Positions 926-64,000 of a DNA stretch of 64,000 nucleotides are shown piece by piece (the first letter of the stretch is position 1; every line of letters starts with the position of its first letter). Position numbers and translations under genes: made by a program. The DNA is from Levilactobacillus lanxiensis (GTDB taxonomy: Bacteria > Bacillota > Bacilli > Lactobacillales > Lactobacillaceae), in NCBI RefSeq assembly GCF_016861655.1, contig NZ_BOLN01000003.1, positions 124,001 through 188,000 on the forward strand, read 5' to 3'. The notes beneath the pieces were generated by a model. The model was not told the origin of the DNA. It was given only the letters and a program-made list of their open reading frames with translations, and did no database searches.

Positions 926-1103
926 GCCTCCGGGCTGGTGAAAATGAGACCGGTTCGCGGTGGGCGCCCGTCCGGAGCCAAAGAGCGGTCTCCGGACTTA
1001 CTTTGTGCCTCTGAGAAGCGAGTCACAAAGATAGCAATTCCCTAACCGGCGTTGCCGCTAAGGGAATTCCCACGGCTGAGCTCATTTTCACCAGCCCTGC
1101 GGC
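926..1103 (+). repeat. Structured repeat family A, copy 1
   Basis: A 178-base element between divergent genes. Outer arms GGGCTGGTGAAAATGAG and CTCATTTTCACCAGCCC pair perfectly. Inside are three hairpins: GTCCGGAG/CTCCGGAC, CTTTGTG/CACAAAG and AATTCCCT/AGGGAATT, and a GTGGG/CCCAC closing pair. Four more copies occur at 7755, 23551, 62377 and 62733 with changed but still paired stems. I know of no named family that matches it. Confidence 0.8.
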
Positions 1104-3257: not shown

Positions 3258-3379
3258 GGAAAAGTACACGGGAGCGCAAAAGAATACCATGGTTATGTAA
3301 GCGGTTACGTTTATGTGAATGCCAATATCATGTAGAAGTGAAAAGACCCCCCAAAGGTTAAAAATGAACGTCTGTGTAA

Positions 3380-3565
3380 GTGACCAGAGGCGGGCCAAAG
3401 TGGCCAGCTGTGTCGGTGGTCTTAACTGAGTGAATTTCTCAGTTTAGAGCACGGGACGACCTTTGAGACCGAGCTTTGGCTCAAAGGCGAGGCCCCAGAC
3501 CGCTTCCCAGGCTGGAGCCGTTCCCCATAGCAGGCCACTTTGAGCCCGCCGCCGGGAACGTAAAA
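3380..3565 (-). repeat. Structured repeat family B, copy 1 (full)
   Basis: A ~186-base element ending about ten bases after the stop of the HxlR gene (reverse strand). The outer arms GGCGGGC and GCCCGCC pair, extended by CCAAAGTGG/CCACTTTGAG. Inner hairpins are AACTGAG/CTCAGTT and CCTTTGAG/CTCAAAGG. A second full copy is at 47435 and a deleted 45-base copy at 38113. Strand is given as that of the adjoining gene. Confidence 0.75.
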
Positions 3566-4078: not shown

Positions 4079-5041
4079 ATGACAAAAGTATATTTAACTG
4101 CCCAATTCCCTGAAGTTGCCCTGAAACAGCTGCGTGACAATCATTTAGACGTTGAGAGTTATACCGGCGATGGTCTGATTTCACACGAAGAGTTACTGGC
4201 CAAGGCCGCCACTGCTGATTTTCTGATCACCACGTTATCCACGTTCGTTGACCAAGAAATTATCGATGCGGCACCGAAACTTAAGTTGATTGCGAACTTT
4301 GGCGCTGGCTTCAACAATATTGATAGCGCTTACGCCAAGGAAAAAGGCGTTCTCGTCACGAACACACCCAAGGTTTCGACGAACTCGGTAGCTGAATTGA
4401 CGCTTAGTCTGATTTTAGCCCTGAGTCACCGGATGGTCGAGGGTGACCAGCAGATGCGCACCGTGGGCTTTCCTGGCTGGGCACCGCTCTACTTCCTGGG
4501 TCATGAAATTACCGGCAAGACGCTGGGCATCTTTGGCTTAGGCAGTATCGGGAGCGAAGTGGCACGCAAGGCCGGTAGTCTGGGGATGAAGGTCAGCTAC
4601 TTCTCCCCACATCGTTTGGCTAGTGCGGATGAAGAGGCCCTCAACGTGACCTACCAATCGGTTGACGACCTGGTTAAGAACAGTGATTTCATCAGTATCA
4701 ACGCACCGCTCACGCCAGAAACGAAGCATCAATTTAATGCGGAAACGTTTAAGCAGATGAAATCAACGGCCGCTATTATTAATGTGGGTCGGGGACCAAT
4801 CCTGGATGAAGCCGCGCTGTTACAGGCCTTACAAGCAAAGGAAATTGGTGGCGCCGCACTGGACGTTTACGAAAACGAACCGCAATTCGATGCTGGGTTC
4901 ACCACGCTGAAGAACGTCATTTTGACGCCTCACATTGGTAACGCAACGGTGGAAGCCCGGAACGCTATGGCCGACATCGTTGCCGGTAACGTGGTGTTGA
5001 TGGCTAAGGGCCAAGATCCGAAGTATGTCGTTAATAAATAA
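4079..5041 (+). CDS. D-isomer-specific 2-hydroxyacid dehydrogenase
   Basis: A 320-residue NAD(P)-dependent oxidoreductase of the GyaR/hydroxypyruvate reductase-like branch. The Rossmann motif is GLGSIGSEVARKAGSLGMKV (about 154-173). Catalytic elements are NVGRGPILDEAAL with Arg, the ALDVYENEP segment with Glu, and TPHIGNAT with His. GAGFNNID near residue 80 is the usual N-terminal signature. It should reduce small 2-keto acids such as glyoxylate, pyruvate or branched keto acids; the exact substrate cannot be read from sequence. An AGGAGG site precedes the ATG. It is divergent from an HxlR regulator, its likely controller. Confidence 0.88.
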   Translation: MTKVYLTAQFPEVALKQLRDNHLDVESYTGDGLISHEELLAKAATADFLITTLSTFVDQEIIDAAPKLKLIANFGAGFNNIDSAYAKEKGVLVTNTPKVSTNSVAELTLSLILALSHRMVEGDQQMRTVGFPGWAPLYFLGHEITGKTLGIFGLGSIGSEVARKAGSLGMKVSYFSPHRLASADEEALNVTYQSVDDLVKNSDFISINAPLTPETKHQFNAETFKQMKSTAAIINVGRGPILDEAALLQALQAKEIGGAALDVYENEPQFDAGFTTLKNVILTPHIGNATVEARNAMADIVAGNVVLMAKGQDPKYVVNK

Positions 5042-5542: not shown

Positions 5543-6754
5543 ATGACAATACCCAAAATTCAAGGCGATGTGAACAAATTCATCCGGCATCACGATCTTT
5601 ACCTAAACTTCGTGACCCAACAAACGAGTCAAGGCGAATCAATCGAGGCAGATGGGAAAGGCACGCTACTGACGCGGGGGATTCGGCGATTCGATCAGGC
5701 CCATAATCGGTTTCAGCTGTACAACGAGAACGGTGAGGTATACGTGGGTCCCTATCTCACGTCGCAGGATCTACAGCGCACCCTGGCGCGGTTCATGGCA
5801 AGCGGCGTGGACAAACCGGCCTCGCGGTGGGACGCCGAGTTGGGAGTCCTGGTCTTTCTGATCCACGAGTTGAACCAGCAGGGGTTCGTGGTCACCGGGG
5901 GCGTGCAAGAAACCCAACATATCTGGCAATCCACCAACGATCGCTGGGTGGCGCACGAAGTCCTGGAGGCTAACGGTGAAGATTGGCTGGCAAAGATGCC
6001 GGATCAGACGGACTTCTTACGGCCAAGCGACCTCCCCAAAGTCCTGTTGACCACCACGGGCGACTACTACGCCGTGCGTGATCAACACGGCAGCGTGGTG
6101 ATTGACAACGTGCCGTTGGAAAAGTTGGTTAGTGTCTTATTGGGGCTCCGGCTCGGCATTCCCGCCTGGGCATTGACCTCCTTATTGTTAGCGCCACGGG
6201 TTTCCACGGAGTCGTTTGCCGATGCGCAGCTGGTGATCACCCGCAATGATTGTTCGGCTGCCCATGAAATTCGGACGCTGGCGGACTTTGATGCTGTTGC
6301 GGCATTACCGATCTTACACGATCACCAGCATCAGACGTACCAGTACCAATTTGATACGCCGCACGAGCAGTTGGGTGACCCGATGACGGCGTCTGTTTTT
6401 TGTGGGATGACGTCGTTTATTTATCACGGCATGCCTCTGCGCGATTTGACCGCCGATGAGAATTTGACCGCTTGGCTGGCCAACTTGGCGTTTAGCGCGG
6501 GCATGCGAATTTCCCTGCGCCAGCAACGGCAAGTGCACCAGGCAAGCGTGGAAGCGCTGATTGTGACGGACGGGATAATCAACAAGCTACAGTTAAAGGA
6601 AAATGATGAGCAGCGGGGTGAAATCGAGACGGTCTACGACGTTTACGCCGGGGATGCGGACGACCCGATCATGTACGACTTAGCATTTGATGAACTGGTG
6701 ACGGCCTTATTGGTGGTTGGCCAGATGCAAGGGATTTTGAAATTTCCAAACTAA
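5543..6754 (+). CDS. Hypothetical protein, 403 aa, paired with a WYL regulator
   Basis: I do not recognise a catalytic domain. It is a soluble mixed alpha/beta protein of 403 residues with no signal peptide, membrane helix or obvious metal site. The central part, FYAVRDQHGSVVIDNV-like in spacing (about 175-190), looks like a small beta-sheet domain, and the C-terminus is acidic. A GAGGAGG site precedes the ATG. The WYL regulator starts only 16 bases after its stop, so the two are translationally close and probably act together. It may be a partner or target of the regulator; nothing in the sequence decides this. Confidence 0.75.
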   Translation: MTIPKIQGDVNKFIRHHDLYLNFVTQQTSQGESIEADGKGTLLTRGIRRFDQAHNRFQLYNENGEVYVGPYLTSQDLQRTLARFMASGVDKPASRWDAELGVLVFLIHELNQQGFVVTGGVQETQHIWQSTNDRWVAHEVLEANGEDWLAKMPDQTDFLRPSDLPKVLLTTTGDYYAVRDQHGSVVIDNVPLEKLVSVLLGLRLGIPAWALTSLLLAPRVSTESFADAQLVITRNDCSAAHEIRTLADFDAVAALPILHDHQHQTYQYQFDTPHEQLGDPMTASVFCGMTSFIYHGMPLRDLTADENLTAWLANLAFSAGMRISLRQQRQVHQASVEALIVTDGIINKLQLKENDEQRGEIETVYDVYAGDADDPIMYDLAFDELVTALLVVGQMQGILKFPN

Positions 6755-6770
6755 TTAGGAGGCGGCATTT

Positions 6771-7739
6771 ATGAAGGGACGCGAACGCGCGGTTGACGTG
6801 CTGGTAAAGTTATTAGCGGGTGGAAAGATTACGACGGATACGAATGGTAAGGAAACTTATCAGGTCTCTGAACGAAGCCTGGAACGGGATACAAAACTCA
6901 TTCGCGAAACGTTGGCGGACAACGACTCGGCCTACCAGCTGCAGCAAAAAGGCAAGACGTACTGGTTAGAAAAGGACGGGGCACTGTCGGCCGAAGAGAT
7001 TCTCGCGTTGATAAAAATTGTGATTGGGACCCGGTCACTGACGCGAGAGGAATTGTTGCGGGTCAAGGACAGTTTGCTCGACCTGGTCGCGGATAATAAA
7101 CGTGGGCCGATTCAGAAATTGATCAGTAACTCACTGGTCCACTACACGCCGTTATTTTCCAATGGCGATAAGGAAATCTTGCCATTGTTGAAGGATTTCG
7201 CCAACTGGGTCAGCCACAAGACACCGATTAAGTTTCATTACCGCAGTAGTGTGCCCGATGCGCAGGGCCGGGCGCTCAGTAAGCCCGGTTCCGGCGTGCC
7301 GTTGAGCATTTACTTCGCCGATTTCTACTTTTACGTGGTGATGTACATTCCGGAAATCAATAAGAGCCTGGTGTACCGATTGGACCGTTTCCAAGATGCT
7401 CGTACCACCCGTGCCGTGGTGAAGGTGCCTGGCGATAAGAAAATTGATGAAGGCGCTTTGCGAAATAAAACTTACCTCTTGAGCGGTGGGACGGATATTC
7501 CGTACGAGTTCCGCTACTGGGGCTACCCACAAACGGCGCTGGACAAGCTACCCAACTCTCGAATCACCGAGTGGAATCGGGAGGATGGCAGTGTCACCAT
7601 CAAGGGGGACCACTTGGCGTCACAAGGGGCACTGCTGTGGGTGCTGAGCCAGGGCGCCCAGATTCAGGTGGTGGCGCCACAGTCGCTGGTAGATTCCGTC
7701 AAGCGCGAGCTCACGAAAACCATGAGTTACTACGACTAA
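6771..7739 (+). CDS. HTH/WYL-domain regulator
   Basis: A 322-residue protein with an N-terminal winged helix (residues 1-70, ERAVDVLVKLLAGG ... VSERSLERDTKLIRETL), a helical linker, and a WYL domain (~150-235) seen in IKFHYRSS, LSIYFADFYFYVVMYI and VYRLDRFQDARTT. WYL domains bind nucleic acid or nucleotide ligands and control many DNA-damage and phage-defence loci. It is co-transcribed with the unknown 403-aa gene (gap 16 bases). No target promoter can be assigned. A family A repeat starts 15 bases after its stop. Confidence 0.88.
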   Translation: MKGRERAVDVLVKLLAGGKITTDTNGKETYQVSERSLERDTKLIRETLADNDSAYQLQQKGKTYWLEKDGALSAEEILALIKIVIGTRSLTREELLRVKDSLLDLVADNKRGPIQKLISNSLVHYTPLFSNGDKEILPLLKDFANWVSHKTPIKFHYRSSVPDAQGRALSKPGSGVPLSIYFADFYFYVVMYIPEINKSLVYRLDRFQDARTTRAVVKVPGDKKIDEGALRNKTYLLSGGTDIPYEFRYWGYPQTALDKLPNSRITEWNREDGSVTIKGDHLASQGALLWVLSQGAQIQVVAPQSLVDSVKRELTKTMSYYD

Positions 7740-7754
7740 ACGGTGCTTGGATTC

Positions 7755-7935
7755 GCCTACAGGGCGGCGCCAACCTACTGGAACGGCTGTGGGCGGACGT
7801 CTGGAGCCAAAGGGCGGTCTCCAGGCTTGCTTTGAACCTCAAAGGTCGAGTTTCAAAGACACCAATTCTCTAAGCGGTAAAAATCACCACTAAGAGAATT
7901 CCCACGGCTTAGCAAGTTGGCGCCGCTCTGTAGGC
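7755..7935 (+). repeat. Structured repeat family A, copy 2
   Basis: 181 bases beginning 15 bases after the WYL stop. The outer arms here are GGGCGGCGCCAAC and GTTGGCGCCGCTC, wholly different from copy 1 yet still paired. Inner stems GTCTGGAG/CTCCAGGC, CTTTGAA/TTTCAAAG and AATTCTCTAAG/CTAAGAGAATT also changed together. The unpaired boxes TGTGGGC and CCCACGGCT are kept. Confidence 0.8.
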
Positions 7936-8017
7936 TGATACTGGTTTAGGTCGTCGCTGGTGATTTTCCTGAACGGTTTCCTCTCAAATGTGATTTACCG
8001 TATCAATTTGTGGCAAT

Positions 8018-11152: not shown

Positions 11153-11298
11153 CGCGCGCCTCCTAGCGTAAACGGTTTTTAGTGTTCCTTTTAGCATAGT
11201 GGTTCGAGTGAACTACCGTCAACGAGTTAGCTCGGTGGTCGTCATTTTTCGATGGTTGGGCTTCGAGATTTGATTTGGCAGTGAATTTTTGAGGGATT

Positions 11299-11338
11299 TA
11301 AAAACAGCTAAGCCGGCTTGGGAGCTGGCTTAGCTGTT
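11299..11338 (-). terminator. Terminator of the HicB-like gene
   Basis: AACAGCTAAGCC pairs with GGCTTAGCTGTT; reverse-strand T run follows. Confidence 0.8.
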
Positions 11339-11362
11339 AGGCGAACGCTTGGGTCAATCGTA

Positions 11363-11626
11363 TCAATTAGATTTTGTATCAACTTCAATTGGAATTAGGC
11401 GTTGTTGGGAATCAGGTGTGAGGTCTTGAAAGCTTGAGGGTTGTGGCAGCTTGATGCCCAAACTTTCAGCTGTCAGTAAGTAACCCACTAGTGCGTCGGC
11501 CGCCATGCGCTGGGCATCGGGTAGATTATTGCCGAAAGTAGCCACGTGTGGCGCCAAATCGGGAAATGTGACTTCAATGCGTCCTTGATTATTGGTGGTG
11601 AACAGAGCGTAGTATGAATATTTCAT
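11363..11626 (-). CDS. HicB-like antitoxin-fold protein (orphan)
   Basis: An 87-residue protein with the HicB partial RNase H fold: YYALFTTNNQGRIEVTFPDL then ATFGNNLPDAQRMAADALVGYLLTAE. There is no C-terminal DNA-binding helix and no HicA-like dsRBD toxin on either side, so it is an orphan. Such proteins are common in lactobacilli and may not be toxin partners. ATG at 11626 has GAGGAG eight bases upstream. The longer reading from 11692 has no ribosome site. It is divergent from the brnQ leader. Confidence 0.8.
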   Translation of the reverse strand: MKYSYYALFTTNNQGRIEVTFPDLAPHVATFGNNLPDAQRMAADALVGYLLTAESLGIKLPQPSSFQDLTPDSQQRLIPIEVDTKSN

Positions 11627-11729
11627 TGTAAAATCTCCTCGGCTAACGTCAGCAGTATAGCACGAATCGAGCTGTGATTCAGAAAATGCCACTCAATCCA
11701 GCTAATCTCATTTAATTTTAATTTACCCA

Positions 11730-23550: not shown

Positions 23551-23732
23551 GCCGCAGGGGTGGTGAAAATGAGCCTAGCCGTGGGAATTCTCTTAGCAGC
23601 GGTCCTTGCTGGTTAGAGAATTGATAGTTTTGAGACTCGTTTTTGGAGGCTCAAAATAAGTCTGGAGACCGCTCTATGGCTCCAGACGTTCGCCCACAGC
23701 GTCCCGGTCTCATTTTCACTACCCCGGAGGCG
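23551..23732 (-). repeat. Structured repeat family A, copy 3
   Basis: 182 bases in reverse orientation between xylA and xylB. Read on the reverse strand it has outer arms GGTAGTGAAAATGAG/CTCATTTTCACCACC, stems GTCTGGAG/CTCCAGAC, TTTTGAG/CTCAAAA and AATTCTCTAAC/GCTAAGAGAATT. It splits the xylAB genes, so xylB is probably transcribed from its own promoter. Confidence 0.8.
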
Positions 23733-47289: not shown

Positions 47290-47434
47290 GGGTATGATGT
47301 AGCAAGTCTTTTTAAGATTAAGAAGATAGTTACCTAATGAGATTGATTACGAGTTGGCATGAACAAAATATTGGTCAAAAGTTTAGGTGACGATTGATTT
47401 AGCCTTGGGGTGTGAAAAGGCATCATCAGTGTTA

Positions 47435-47621
47435 GTGACCAGAGGCAGGCCAAGCGGACCAGCTATGTCGGTGGTCTTAACTGAGTGGTTTTCTCAGTTT
47501 AGAGCACGGGACGACCTGGGAGACTGGTGATTTTCCAGGCTTTCAGGCGAGGCGAAAGACCGTTTCTCAGGCTGGAGCCGTTCCCCATAGCAGGGAGCTT
47601 GAGCCTGCCGTCGGGAATGAA
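47435..47621 (+). repeat. Structured repeat family B, copy 2 (full)
   Basis: 187 bases between the two mntH-usp modules. Compared with copy 1 the outer arms are GGCAGGCCAAG/CTTGAGCCTGCC, changed on both sides and still paired. CTGAG/CTCAG and the AGAGCACGGGACGACCT, GGCTGGAGCCGTTCCCCATAGCAG boxes are nearly identical. Confidence 0.75.
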
Positions 47622-60273: not shown

Positions 60274-60506
60274 AGTTAACCCACCAAAAGTCCGTCAAAA
60301 TCACGAAATTGCCCCGCCCTTAACCCGTGAAACCATTCTAATTGCTCACAAACGTAAGCGGTAAGACCGCTACGACCGGTAACGGCCACCCACCATTTAG
60401 CAGGACCTTGGTTCGACCATTTAATTATGTCATCATCAACTAGTGATTTGCGCCACCTTTTCGCGGAGTGGCGGGGTATAATGAAGCTTAAATGGAGGGG
60501 ATGCTC

Positions 60507-62351
60507 ATGAGGATTCGTCTGATTGTGGCCGGCTTAATTGTGGGGCTGGGCAGTTTCGGTGGCGTCACAGCGACCGCGGCTAGCACCAGCACGCTGGCGA
60601 CACCGTACCGTGAGAGTGAATTAACCAATTTAAAAAATGTGAAACCCGTTTCTGGCAGTAAAACCGTGACGCTGGACCTGGTCCTCAACACGCGGAATAG
60701 CGCGCAGCTGACCAAGACCGCGTACGCCGTGAATACGTCGGGGAATAAGCAGTTCAAGGCTTACCTGACGCCCAAACAGTTCCGGCAAAAATTTGGACAG
60801 TCCACGACCACCACAAAACGTTTGGCCAAGTACTTCAAGTCACGCAAGTTTAAGGTCACAACCTTTAACGACGGCCTAATCATGCAGATCAAGGGGAGTA
60901 CGACGGCCGTGAACAAGACCTTCGCGACGAACCTGAAGACGGCCACTTATCACGGCAAGAAAATTCAGTTTTCTAAGAAGACGCCAAAGTTGCCAAGCAA
61001 CGTGGCTAAGCCCATCAAGGCCGTCGTCGGCATCACCAACCTGGCGAAGATGAGTAGCTTGGCGGATACGTCCAGCACCAGTTCCGACGGGCCAACCAGT
61101 GATGGTGCGCCGCAGAATTTCTTGAGTCAGTACAATGCGACGAACCTGGCCAAGGGCAATGATGGCAAAGGCCAAACGATTGGCATCATTAGCTTTAGCA
61201 AGGTCAACCAGAATGACATCACCCATTTCTGGTCTGAGGAAGGCGTTGCGTCGTCCGCCAGTCGCATCAGTGTGAAGACCACTGGCGGCATGAATATCTG
61301 GGGCAACGTCGATCCGGGAAACGAAGAGACTTCGCTAGACGTTGAACAGGCCGGGGCCATCGCGCCGAAAGCTAAGATTCGCGTGTACACGGCTTCTCTG
61401 AGTGACGTGGGTTGGCTCAATGCGTTTGCGACAGCCTTTGGTGAGAATCAGGCTAGTTCGTTGTCGTTGAGCTGGGGCCTATCCGAAGGTGTGCTCCAGA
61501 GCCTGAACAAGGAGCACCTGTTAACGCCACTTTATGGCAGCATCATGAACACGTTGCTGGCGCAGGGCGCGATTCAAGGAATCTCGACCTTTGCGGCAAG
61601 CGGGGACACCGGGGCCTATGGCGAAGAGCTCGACAGCCAGGGCAATACCAACGAAGGTATTTACGCCAACTTCCCTGCCAACAATCCGTGGGTCACGGCC
61701 ACCGGTGGGACCACGTTGCCAGTCTCTGGCACGCTGGCCAACGGCATCAAGGTCGACATCCCCAAGGAACGGACCTGGGGCGGCGACGAACTCTTTGGCG
61801 CCTACTTCCAAGATGAAGGCTTTTTCAAAAAGAATTCTGATTTGATGGACACGCTTCAGAGCGGCAGTGGCGGCGGTATTTCCGAACTGTACGCAACGCC
61901 GCAGTATCAAAAGGGCGTGTCTGGCGTGAACACCTATAACGCCCGCCAATACCTGACGGCGAGTGGGTTGCCACGAGAGAATCCGAGTTTGATCACCGGG
62001 ACGGCCAGCGGGCGAAACTTCCCAGACGTCGTGGCTGACGCCGATCCGTTGACGGGGTATGACGAATACACCAGCGCGGATGGTTGGGAACTGACCGGTG
62101 GGACCAGCGTCGTGGCACCGCAGTTTGCGGCGATGGCGGCCGTTATCAACAGTGGTCGCAGTAAGCGCATGGGACTGTGGAACCCGCAGCTGTACGCGCT
62201 GGCCCAGACCAGTCAGTCACCGTTTACCAAATTGGATTCGGCCACGAACAACGGGAATTTGTTCTACGTGGGGCAGCCGGGGAAGACTTATAACCAGGCG
62301 GCCGGCTTAGGTACCCTGGACTTTGACCAGTTAGCCAAGGTCTTCAAATAA
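60507..62351 (+). CDS. Secreted S53 (sedolisin) serine-carboxyl peptidase
   Basis: 614 residues: signal peptide to ~25 (ending TATAA), a pro-kumamolisin activation domain (~30-175, with LTPKQFRQKFGQS), and the S53 catalytic domain from ~200. The catalytic residues are E274 and D278 (NEETSLDVEQAGAIAP), D367 (FAASGDTG) and S534 (TGGTSVVAP). The calcium site lies near the C-terminus with PDVVADADP and GLGTLDF. S53 enzymes work at acid pH, fitting an acid-forming bacterium. ATG at 60507 has GGAGGGG six bases upstream; ATG at 60492 overlaps it. Lone gene followed by a family A repeat. Confidence 0.93.
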   Translation: MRIRLIVAGLIVGLGSFGGVTATAASTSTLATPYRESELTNLKNVKPVSGSKTVTLDLVLNTRNSAQLTKTAYAVNTSGNKQFKAYLTPKQFRQKFGQSTTTTKRLAKYFKSRKFKVTTFNDGLIMQIKGSTTAVNKTFATNLKTATYHGKKIQFSKKTPKLPSNVAKPIKAVVGITNLAKMSSLADTSSTSSDGPTSDGAPQNFLSQYNATNLAKGNDGKGQTIGIISFSKVNQNDITHFWSEEGVASSASRISVKTTGGMNIWGNVDPGNEETSLDVEQAGAIAPKAKIRVYTASLSDVGWLNAFATAFGENQASSLSLSWGLSEGVLQSLNKEHLLTPLYGSIMNTLLAQGAIQGISTFAASGDTGAYGEELDSQGNTNEGIYANFPANNPWVTATGGTTLPVSGTLANGIKVDIPKERTWGGDELFGAYFQDEGFFKKNSDLMDTLQSGSGGGISELYATPQYQKGVSGVNTYNARQYLTASGLPRENPSLITGTASGRNFPDVVADADPLTGYDEYTSADGWELTGGTSVVAPQFAAMAAVINSGRSKRMGLWNPQLYALAQTSQSPFTKLDSATNNGNLFYVGQPGKTYNQAAGLGTLDFDQLAKVFK

Positions 62352-62376: not shown

Positions 62377-62551
62377 GCCTCCGGGCTGGTGAAAATGGAC
62401 CGTGACGCTGTGGGCGCACGTCTGAAGCCTGAGAAGCGGTCTTCAGACTTACTTTGAGCCGAAAGTCACGTCTCAAAGATAGCAGTTACCTAAGCGGGAA
62501 ACCCGCTAAGGTAACTCCCACGGCTGAGCCCATTTTCACCAGCCCTGCGGC
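62377..62551 (+). repeat. Structured repeat family A, copy 4
   Basis: 175 bases, 25 bases after the sedolisin stop, sense orientation. Stems GGCTGGTGAAAATG/CATTTTCACCAGCC, GTCTGAAG/CTTCAGAC, CTTTGAG/CTCAAAG and AGTTACCTAAGCGGG/CCCGCTAAGGTAACT are all paired. Confidence 0.8.
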
Positions 62552-62732: not shown

Positions 62733-62901
62733 GCCGTGAGGGCGGTGAAAATAGCCTCAGCCGTGGGATTTCCTGTGTTCTTCAGGAAATGGTGACTTTG
62801 AGACGTGGTGTTGGCGGCTCAAAGCAAGTGGGAAGACCGAACCTCAGGCTTCCCGCGTCCTTCCCACCGCGTTCCAGCCTATTTTCACCGCCCGGTAAGG
62901 C
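62733..62901 (-). repeat. Structured repeat family A, copy 5
   Basis: 169 bases in reverse orientation, ending 11 bases after the stop of the reverse-strand surface protein gene (sense to it). Outer arms GGGCGGTGAAAATAG/CTATTTTCACCGCCC. Inner stems GGGAAG/CTTCCC, CTTTGAG/CTCAAAG and ATTTCCTG/CAGGAAAT. The most diverged copy, still fully paired. Confidence 0.8.
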
Positions 62902-62912
62902 GAATTAAACGA

Positions 62913-64000
62913 TTATTTAACCGTCTGAACCAATTTCTTGTTAGCAGTGACGTAGGTGCCGTTGGTGAGGACGAACCGGGTCGTCAGGTTGTGGGTCACG
63001 ATTTTCTTCACCTTGAGGACCTGGCCTTGACGGTAGTGGTGGCGCTTACCGGTCAGGGACTTTTTACTATAGGCGTTGACGCCGGCTTTGTTGATCACGG
63101 TGATCTTAGGTTGCTTCTTAGCGTAGTACACGCGAGCAGTGTAGCGGCTGTTGGCCGTGATATAACCGGTCTTGCCGGCGGTCTTACTGTGGTGGTTGAC
63201 GTCCTTCACGCGGTAACGTTTGACGCCGTTCTTGGATTTGGCATAGCCGGTGACGACAAACATCGGCCGGTTTTGCCGTGACTTTTTCGCGTACCACTGT
63301 TTACGGGCCTTTTTAGTGAAGGTGGCTGACCGATACAGGCCAATCTTCTTGGTGGCGTAAACCACTGTGCCCTTGGGAGCGACAACTGCGGCACCAGCGC
63401 CACTCGTCAGGACGGCCTGGTACACGTAGGTGACGGTCTGTGCCTGGCTGGTAAATTTACCAGTGGCGTTGGTTGGCGTCGTCTTTAAGGTGTAGTTGGC
63501 AATCTTCAACGCGGCACTCTGATAGCTCGCTCCCAGGTCACCCGTCAGCGTTTTGGCCGGGGCGACCGTCTTGCCAGTGGTATCGACGTAACGGACCGTC
63601 ACCGGTTGACTGGTCACGGGTTCTGGGTCGGGCGTTGGCTGCGGGTTGGGATTTGGTTCTGGTGTCGTAGTCGGTGGCAACAGGGCGTCATCGGAACTGA
63701 AAATTTTAAACTCGATGGCCATCAGAAGACCGCTGACTTGGTAGGTGCCATCCCCTTGTGGTATCAGGAAGTCAGCCATCGGTTGATTCATGGCACGTTC
63801 CGTTTCCGCTGCGGAGATTTCCGGGTTTAACTGGGTCAATTGTTCGTTGGTATACTGGCCTAGGTAGTTCGCTTGGATGAGACCAGGAAATGTATTTTCA
63901 TAGAGCATTTTTTGAATACGTGGGTCTTCAAAGTTTTCCTCTGTAGTAAAAATCTGGTCGTAGGTTCCCATAGTGCTATCAGGGGTCTCAATATTAACCA
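62913..64000 (-). CDS. Large surface protein, C-terminal part (MucBP plus DUF5776-like repeats)
   Basis: The frame is open to the right edge (about 362 codons). ATG at 63971 has no ribosome site and the frame continues upstream (VNIETPDSTMG), so the start is outside the window. From the visible part: an acidic segment, a Pro/Asn-rich linker (PNPNPQPTPDPEP), one MucBP-type repeat (VTVRYVDTTGKTVAPAKTL ... VTYVYQ), and a basic Lys/Tyr-rich end with repeats like RYRVKDVNHHSKTAGKTGYI, as in DUF5776 wall-binding domains. No LPxTG is present; the basic repeats could bind the wall non-covalently. An LRR part may lie outside the window. Confidence 0.82.
   Translation of the reverse strand, partial: VNIETPDSTMGTYDQIFTTEENFEDPRIQKMLYENTFPGLIQANYLGQYTNEQLTQLNPEISAAETERAMNQPMADFLIPQGDGTYQVSGLLMAIEFKIFSSDDALLPPTTTPEPNPNPQPTPDPEPVTSQPVTVRYVDTTGKTVAPAKTLTGDLGASYQSAALKIANYTLKTTPTNATGKFTSQAQTVTYVYQAVLTSGAGAAVVAPKGTVVYATKKIGLYRSATFTKKARKQWYAKKSRQNRPMFVVTGYAKSKNGVKRYRVKDVNHHSKTAGKTGYITANSRYTARVYYAKKQPKITVINKAGVNAYSKKSLTGKRHHYRQGQVLKVKKIVTHNLTTRFVLTNGTYVTANKKLVQTVK

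Follow-up and report, generated by a model that had tools for sequence, protein, structure and literature searches.

We found that the folded repeats first noticed in a 64,000-nt stretch of Levilactobacillus lanxiensis DNA (the window) form a large, old superfamily of non-coding elements dispersed between Lactobacillaceae genes. The element is about 178 nt long with three branches; its fold is constrained in place, and a constraint acting on DNA fits the data better than one acting on RNA, although an RNA of either strand is possible. At three sites, the genomes that carry the element hold an inverted copy of its left flank, a gene end or a promoter, to the right of the element. On balance, we favour the reading that these are non-autonomous DNA elements that are recognised or processed as a folded single strand, in the form of hairpins or cruciform arms, and whose insertion is finished, as we infer from the end products, by foldback synthesis.

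A preliminary description of the window listed five copies of the element, here called the A type, and all five are real (195, 161, 174, 195 and 130 bits against R1, a covariance model built from 29 copies of the host genome with the window's five among them). The layout that it proposed is borne out, with closing arms, GTGGG/CCCAC and then three hairpins, and so is the compensated swap of arm sequence from GGCTGGTGAAAA in copy 1 to GGCGGCGCCAAC in copy 2, where the partner arm matches. Two copies of a diverged B type, absent from that description, bring the window's total to five A and two B copies (Table 1). Many copies also have outer arms like GGGTTAAAC...GTTTAACCC, beyond the ends at which the repeat was first delimited. 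Terminal inverted repeats, a classical trait of MITEs, are present as closing and outer arms.

Table 1. Elements of the A and B types in the window, with the parts of copy 1 and the flanks of copy 2
Feature	Position	Strand	Evidence or remark
A-type copy 1, core	926-1103	+	195.2 bits to R1; minimum free energy -93.4 kcal/mol, z = -7.3 against 200 shuffles
Copy 1 closing stem, 5′ arm	926-948	+	pairs with 1081-1103; inverted repeat I4, 91% complementary
Copy 1 hairpin 1, conserved GAGCC...GGTCTC tip	970-997	+	fold, consensus pairs
Copy 1 hairpin 2	1001-1030	+	fold, consensus pairs
Copy 1 hairpin 3	1036-1067	+	fold, helices 6 and 7
Copy 1 closing stem, 3′ arm	1081-1103	+	inverted repeat I4
B-type relative, diverged	3377-3560	-	49 bits to R1; 166.8 bits to the B profile, which was seeded with it
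Copy 2 left flank X, the end of the upstream frame with stop TAA at 7737-7739	7730-7743	+	frame 6771-7739; pairs with 7943-7956
A-type copy 2, closing-stem sequence differs	7755-7935	+	161.0 bits
Copy 2 right flank X′, imperfect inverted copy of the upstream frame end	7943-7956	+	sequence reading
A-type copy 3	23551-23731	-	174.4 bits
Second B-type relative	47433-47617	-	145.9 bits to the B profile
A-type copy 4, starts 25 nt past the stop of frame 60492-62351	62377-62551	+	194.7 bits
A-type copy 5, adjoins the 3′ end of minus-strand frame 62913-63971	62733-62901	-	129.5 bits

The B-type relatives follow the same general plan as the A type, and B cores lie inside A closing stems both in the host and in its sister species L. 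wangkuiensis. Copy 2 is common to L. wangkuiensis, where a tandem second copy is present. The L. mulengensis ortholog of copy 2 is broken inside hairpin 1, with unrelated sequence beyond (L123, about 4900-4960), which places a rearrangement breakpoint at the element. Elsewhere in the window, a 414-base stretch with a terminator-like hairpin (11290-11703) is absent from L. wangkuiensis.

The covariance-model search that the preliminary description had proposed was run, and it returned at least 150 copies in the host genome, where five had been counted, and relatives in 11 of 40 sampled Lactobacillaceae genera. All 150 candidates scored in the host genome, out of 1,631, match R1; a DNA search of the same genome gave at least 41 matches with 40 of 268 candidates scored. 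Sequence profiles of the A and B types, in counts that include partial hits, mark 219 places in 864 kb of the host genome and 286 in 1,156 kb of L. wangkuiensis, a Levilactobacillus relative whose flanking protein is 94% identical, and the repeats make up 4.2-4.3% of the bases examined in the two genomes.

R1 matches occur in 23 of the 24 Levilactobacillus genomes searched, the host included. In the Levilactobacillus genome G021, none of 68 scored candidates matches, and this genome may serve as an element-free reference. Under stricter filters and a limit of ten scored candidates per genome, 59 of 251 sampled Lactobacillaceae genomes match, in the 11 genera given above. An order-wide sample with nine candidates scored per genome yielded 10 matching genomes of 295, every one in Lactobacillaceae, and 16 genomes of other families yielded no match to R1. 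Eleven genomes of nine other genera, picked for having matches, hold between 6 and 125 each. BLASTN with copy 1 as query found no match in plasmids or in phages. At Rfam's curated threshold, the sole match in the whole window is a tRNA at 1668-1739; the repeats match no family, in agreement with the earlier remark that no family of this layout was known.

The shared features extend to other genera. By eye, the long closing stem around the hairpins is kept in 15 of 15 folded loci from other genera, TGGAACG stands in the left strand of 11 of the 15, and most have tips like GAGCC/AAGCC...GGTCTC/GGTCTT. Many loci across genera also show, by eye, a mismatched TCC/TCC-like step near the ends, within a palindrome that is otherwise nearly perfect.

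We measured covariation in two alignments, one of 118 Levilactobacillus copies (E <= 1e-13) fitted to R1 (A5) and one of 42 matches, comprising 27 from other genera and 15 diverged ones of the genus (A6). In A5, 97.7% of 6,539 cells pair, changes on both sides are found in 44 of the 56 pairs, and 825 cells are double-changed, where shuffles give 212 (sd 14). For covariation, the score reaches 0.345 in A5 and 0.621 in A6, while structures slid along the alignments reach at most 0.069 and 0.116, respectively; in both alignments it lies above all 500 shuffles and every slid structure. All four Watson-Crick types are shown by 17 of 56 pairs in A5 and by 30 of 56 in A6.

Orthologous copies in L. 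wangkuiensis show how the fold evolves in place. Both anchors could be placed in the sister genome for 56 of 100 full-length host hits, and 16 ortholog pairs were kept (40 dropped), each scoring 60 or more, with a single same-strand sister copy and a length difference below 60. With pairing scored on the minimum-energy fold of the host copy, that is, on one partner's fold, 50 of 1896 paired core sites differ (2.6%), compared to 57 of 839 unpaired core sites (6.8%; Fisher p = 9e-7) and 228 of 2179 flank sites (10.5%). At the unpaired rate, about 128 changes would be expected at paired sites, where 50 are seen, so that about 78 are missing. Because the paired core diverges less than the unpaired core, the fold is constrained in place; conversion toward the family consensus could also slow the divergence of the core. 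Together, the covariation and the ortholog constraint support the initial proposal that a fold of RNA or single-stranded DNA is under selection, rather than that an ordinary repeat is decaying.

The alternative named alongside that proposal was gene conversion between inverted repeats. A symmetrical arm-to-arm correction, which comes close to it, predicts many double changes, and the ortholog cores contain three of the Watson-Crick kind, too few for arm correction to be the sole source of covariation. Outside the core, 117 of 657 predicted flank pairs have changed. This amounts to about 9% per site, near the flank rate, so that the flanking palindromes resemble unmaintained remnants.

Folded RNA accepts G.U pairs but not A.C. 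The 6,539 cells of A5 comprise 6,351 Watson-Crick pairs, 37 G.U and 81 A.C. As a control, 16 tRNAs of the same stretches have 326 Watson-Crick, 28 G.U and no A.C among 354 stem pairs; their stems were drawn by ARAGORN with no mismatch left, so the zero for A.C may be partly built in, while the 8% of G.U stands. In the ortholog cores, one-sided changes away from Watson-Crick pairs produced 9 G.U, 10 A.C and 14 other mismatches. The excess of G.U over A.C expected of a structured RNA was thus not found in the genus set, and, wobble being nearly absent there, we read the fold as one of DNA rather than RNA. Weak selection on an opposite-strand RNA would likewise account for the A.C excess in A5. 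Contrary to the DNA reading, A6 contains 55 G.U and 29 A.C, with 39 of the 55 G.U in two neighbouring pairs at which GG stands opposite TT in many sequences; these G.T-rich pairs may be an unpaired box or real RNA wobble.

The elements are positioned with respect to genes, as judged with a home-made gene caller. Between called genes lie 152 of 157 copies (72 in the host, 80 in the sister); of the other five, three overlap a gene call and two are without a neighbour. In the orientation of the element, the left gene is the nearer one for 67 of 72 host and 74 of 80 sister copies, with median distances to the left and right genes of 41.5 versus 403.5 nt in the host and 66 versus 449 nt in the sister. 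Of the 72 host copies, 37 have the left gene in sense and 35 in antisense orientation. A start no more than 35 nt from the stop codon is seen in 33 of the 37 sense copies of the host and, less markedly, in 27 of 43 in the sister. A count of element and gene strands in steps of 200 kb, made with replication bias in mind, gave a mixed result.

We scored inverted copying of the flanks by using RNA duplex energies as a measure of complementarity between the DNA 26-70 nt to the left of an element and the DNA to its right. The flanks of 71 host copies average -21.6 kcal/mol, compared to -16.25 (sd 0.38) after flanks have been exchanged between copies, and those of 31 sister copies average -18.3, compared to -15.65 (sd 0.66). 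At 70-120 nt out, host copies show no flank signal, and in other genera the signal is weak (27 copies, -20.3 versus -19.3, sd 0.63). Judged one by one against the 95% point of swapped flanks, 67 of 152 copies do better when the outer arms are counted, 19 of 152 outside those arms, and 4 of 152 from 60 nt outward. Beyond the outer arms, no clear inverted flank is evident in most copies.

We compared three sites in genomes of the genus, and term the left flank X and its inverted copy X′. At site 1, next to a gene that we take to be galT, 30 of 33 matched places were examined. Its four carriers (the host, G000; L. wangkuiensis, G012; G043 and G020) have the element 17-25 nt past the stop codon, in G012 as a B core inside an A stem, and, on its right, the final coding bases repeated in inverted form (scores 20.5-25.5). 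At the 26 other places, the best inverted match scores at most 13.5; most of these non-carriers run directly into a regulator gene, G019 and G002 hold other elements, and G008 was mis-anchored. By eye, the inverted copy in G000 is closer to the coding end of G020 than to its own, as expected if X′ had been written in a common ancestor and then left behind.

At site 2, following a second gene, 28 of 30 loci were read and two were skipped, their gene end not being located. The carriers G000, G043 and G012 hold the element and an inverted copy (17.2-19.9). Scores of 24 of the 25 non-carriers are at most 14.7, and the exception, G048 (18.4), is a terminator hairpin; several non-carriers have ordinary terminator-like hairpins or other elements farther on. 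At site 3, a divergent promoter where 10 of 30 loci were read, the element in G000, G012 and G043 lies a few bases past a TAGAAT box, and inverted copies to its right score 21.8, 24.6 and 20.1, respectively, the one in G012 standing at +560, past a longer array. Where X is recognisable at element-free loci (G020, G047, G040 and G016), inverted matches reach at best 9.5, 12.4, 8.0 and 7.0; X was not reliably located in G003, G049 and G010.

By our own reading of 402.5 kb of G000/G012 alignment, 15 of 23 clean indels of at least 60 bp fall within elements, and most of these take out, between short repeats, either hairpins or almost all of the element. Two whole-element differences have short direct repeats and extra DNA at their flanks and could equally well be deletions. 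Across these 402.5 kb of synteny, we found no clear insertion younger than the L. wangkuiensis split and no clear target-site duplication. At several sites, an A core in one species corresponds to a B core in the other, in the same place and within the same A stem (near C2 57.8, 89.8 and 398 kb; site 1). Several sites also read as an A element, D, a 5′-truncated element and D′, where D is an inverted flank copy. At L113 in L. wangkuiensis (G012 C2, about 236.6-237.1 kb), the element and its downstream flank stand in tandem, the second element being 5′-truncated, and the host genome has a single unit there. A TCGGGCT-like short tandem repeat is expanded in L. wangkuiensis beside a B-like stretch (L084, about 6660-6806; host C2 46660-46806; G012 C2 218842-219090).

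A search of 2.02 Mb from two genomes gave 30 short partial hits, 13 of the 5′ type and 1 of the 3′ type, with no pair of 5′ and 3′ halves within 6 kb that would mark an autonomous partner. The IS200-type Y1 transposase (PF01797) has 1 to 8 matches in 23 of 35 genomes of the genus and none in 12; it has none in G012, G002 and G022, where 68, 59 and 67 of 68 scored candidates match R1, in draft assemblies that may miss IS copies. Mobilisation by a Y1 or RAYT enzyme was considered and set aside, as PF01797 was not found in some of these carriers (drafts); the patchiness of Y1 transposases argues against a simple RAYT system.

In the mechanism that we favour, a 3′ end that halts after X, just past a stop codon or near a transcription start, would gain a copy of the element from elsewhere, by a template switch, integration of single-stranded DNA or reverse transcription. 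The 3′ end of the element would then anneal to the 5′ outer arm of the same copy (GTTTAACCC to GGGTTAAAC) and prime synthesis along X, thereby writing X′, after which the extended strand would rejoin the old right-hand sequence. X′ continues the palindrome almost without a gap, as expected of self-primed foldback synthesis. Later changes, including the loss of hairpins, the exchange of A and B cores in a shared stem and the tandem units with a 5′-truncated element, would arise from recombination and slippage at palindromes. A more specific version, which we offer tentatively and regard as doubtful, is that the elements spread with no transposase of their own, through template switching onto the folded single-stranded element followed by self-primed foldback, so that an X′ is written at each insertion and intergenic DNA grows. 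Counting against the foldback explanation are the lack of a clear insertion after the species split, the small number of clear inverted flanks, the weak flank signal in other genera and the lack of a partner with matching ends. It is also possible that an older hairpin pre-existed at the sites.

Other explanations account for parts of the data. The repeats could act as structured RNA, as transcribed 3′ or 5′ UTR elements in termination, mRNA stability or protein binding, with selection on the RNA fold. Many copies do adjoin stop codons, one follows a promoter-like box, some unpaired motifs recur in several genera, paired sites are constrained in place and two pairs in other genera are G.T-rich. 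We nevertheless consider this unlikely: the wobble comparison within the genus, unlike that in tRNA stems, weakens a pure RNA element, the orientation of the left gene is balanced between sense and antisense, and the flank palindromes diverge about like other flank sites. An ordinary MITE, moved by an unseen DDE or Y1 transposase into stem-loops such as terminators, with the target stems kept as arms in the manner proposed for EFAR, would explain the intergenic position, the terminal inverted arms, the high copy number and the terminator-like arms that flank some copies (L018, L004). However, the element-free orthologs at the three sites lack an inverted X, save for the terminator hairpin in G048. 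With target-site duplication not clear and Y1 transposases patchy, including in three copy-rich drafts where none was found, this origin appears improbable as well.

Finally, the elements may not be mobile now and may have no function, their covariation being produced by palindrome correction, through arm-to-arm template switching, and by gene conversion among old copies. Core exchange in shared stems and hairpin deletions are indeed frequent, and the near-absence of mismatches is the residue expected of correction. Yet correction in the absence of selection would carry a change to both arms about as often as it undoes one, and by our own estimate the roughly 78 of 128 missing changes are accompanied by only three double changes; correction would also erase the mismatched palindrome steps that, by eye, recur across genera. 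We therefore give this explanation little credence.

The favoured reading, of DNA elements handled as a folded single strand, can be set beside known repeat systems. Venditti et al. are said to have described EFAR in 2007 as a repeat of about 170 bp that is intergenic, modular and strongly folding, integrates into stem-loop targets and keeps their stems at its ends. Going by this description, the present repeats resemble EFAR in size, intergenic position, modularity, strong folding and site-specific flanking stem remnants. They differ in their multi-branched core with three hairpins, and, as far as EFAR can be compared by description, in flanks that copy gene ends or a promoter for which element-free orthologs lack such a hairpin. 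Arms are kept here, and at the three sites the one element-free ortholog with an inverted X has a terminator hairpin. The EFAR repeats of Enterococcus faecalis are classed as MITEs (excerpt of PMC3733652).

The BOX, RUP and SPRITE repeats of pneumococcus are folded intergenic repeats that nest and exchange modules (excerpt of PMC3049150). According to that excerpt, they share with the present repeats an intergenic position, folding, modularity (BOX), clustering or mutual insertion and slow recent insertion. By eye, boxA, boxB and boxC modules are not recognised here and the layout differs, and the excerpt of PMC3049150 makes no mention of inverted flank copies. REP and BIME sequences with RAYT are palindromes handled by a transposase as single-stranded DNA (excerpts of PMC6006769 and PMC3733652). 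They are likewise numerous and extragenic, some with mispaired stems, but in those excerpts a REP is a hairpin of 20-65 nt with a GTAG/GTGG foot, compared to about 178 nt and three branches here, and some of our carriers, as drafts, have no Y1 transposase found. A Lactobacillus johnsonii survey reports three clusters of repeated stem-loops (excerpt of PMC2267715), a likeness at the level of repeated stem-loops in a lactobacillus; overlap of those families with this superfamily is possible. In yeast foldback inversions, the 3′ end of a single-stranded DNA hairpin primes synthesis and yields an inverted duplication (excerpt of PMC7467729). The chemistry is the one suggested here, and is proposed there for ordinary hairpins; as that excerpt has it, the setting differs, being damage repair at an arbitrary locus of a eukaryote, with no repeat family.

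Our searches of the literature on lactobacilli returned no description of these repeats. As far as these searches can tell, the family itself, its spread over Lactobacillaceae, its nearly wobble-free covariation with constraint in place and its inverted flank copying are new. The repeats provide a natural record of flank inverted duplication, a rearrangement mostly examined in the context of damage repair, and a case on which selection for a DNA fold can be told apart from selection for an RNA fold. In the genomes that carry them, inversely copied promoters and gene ends could give rise to new regulation or to antisense pairing.
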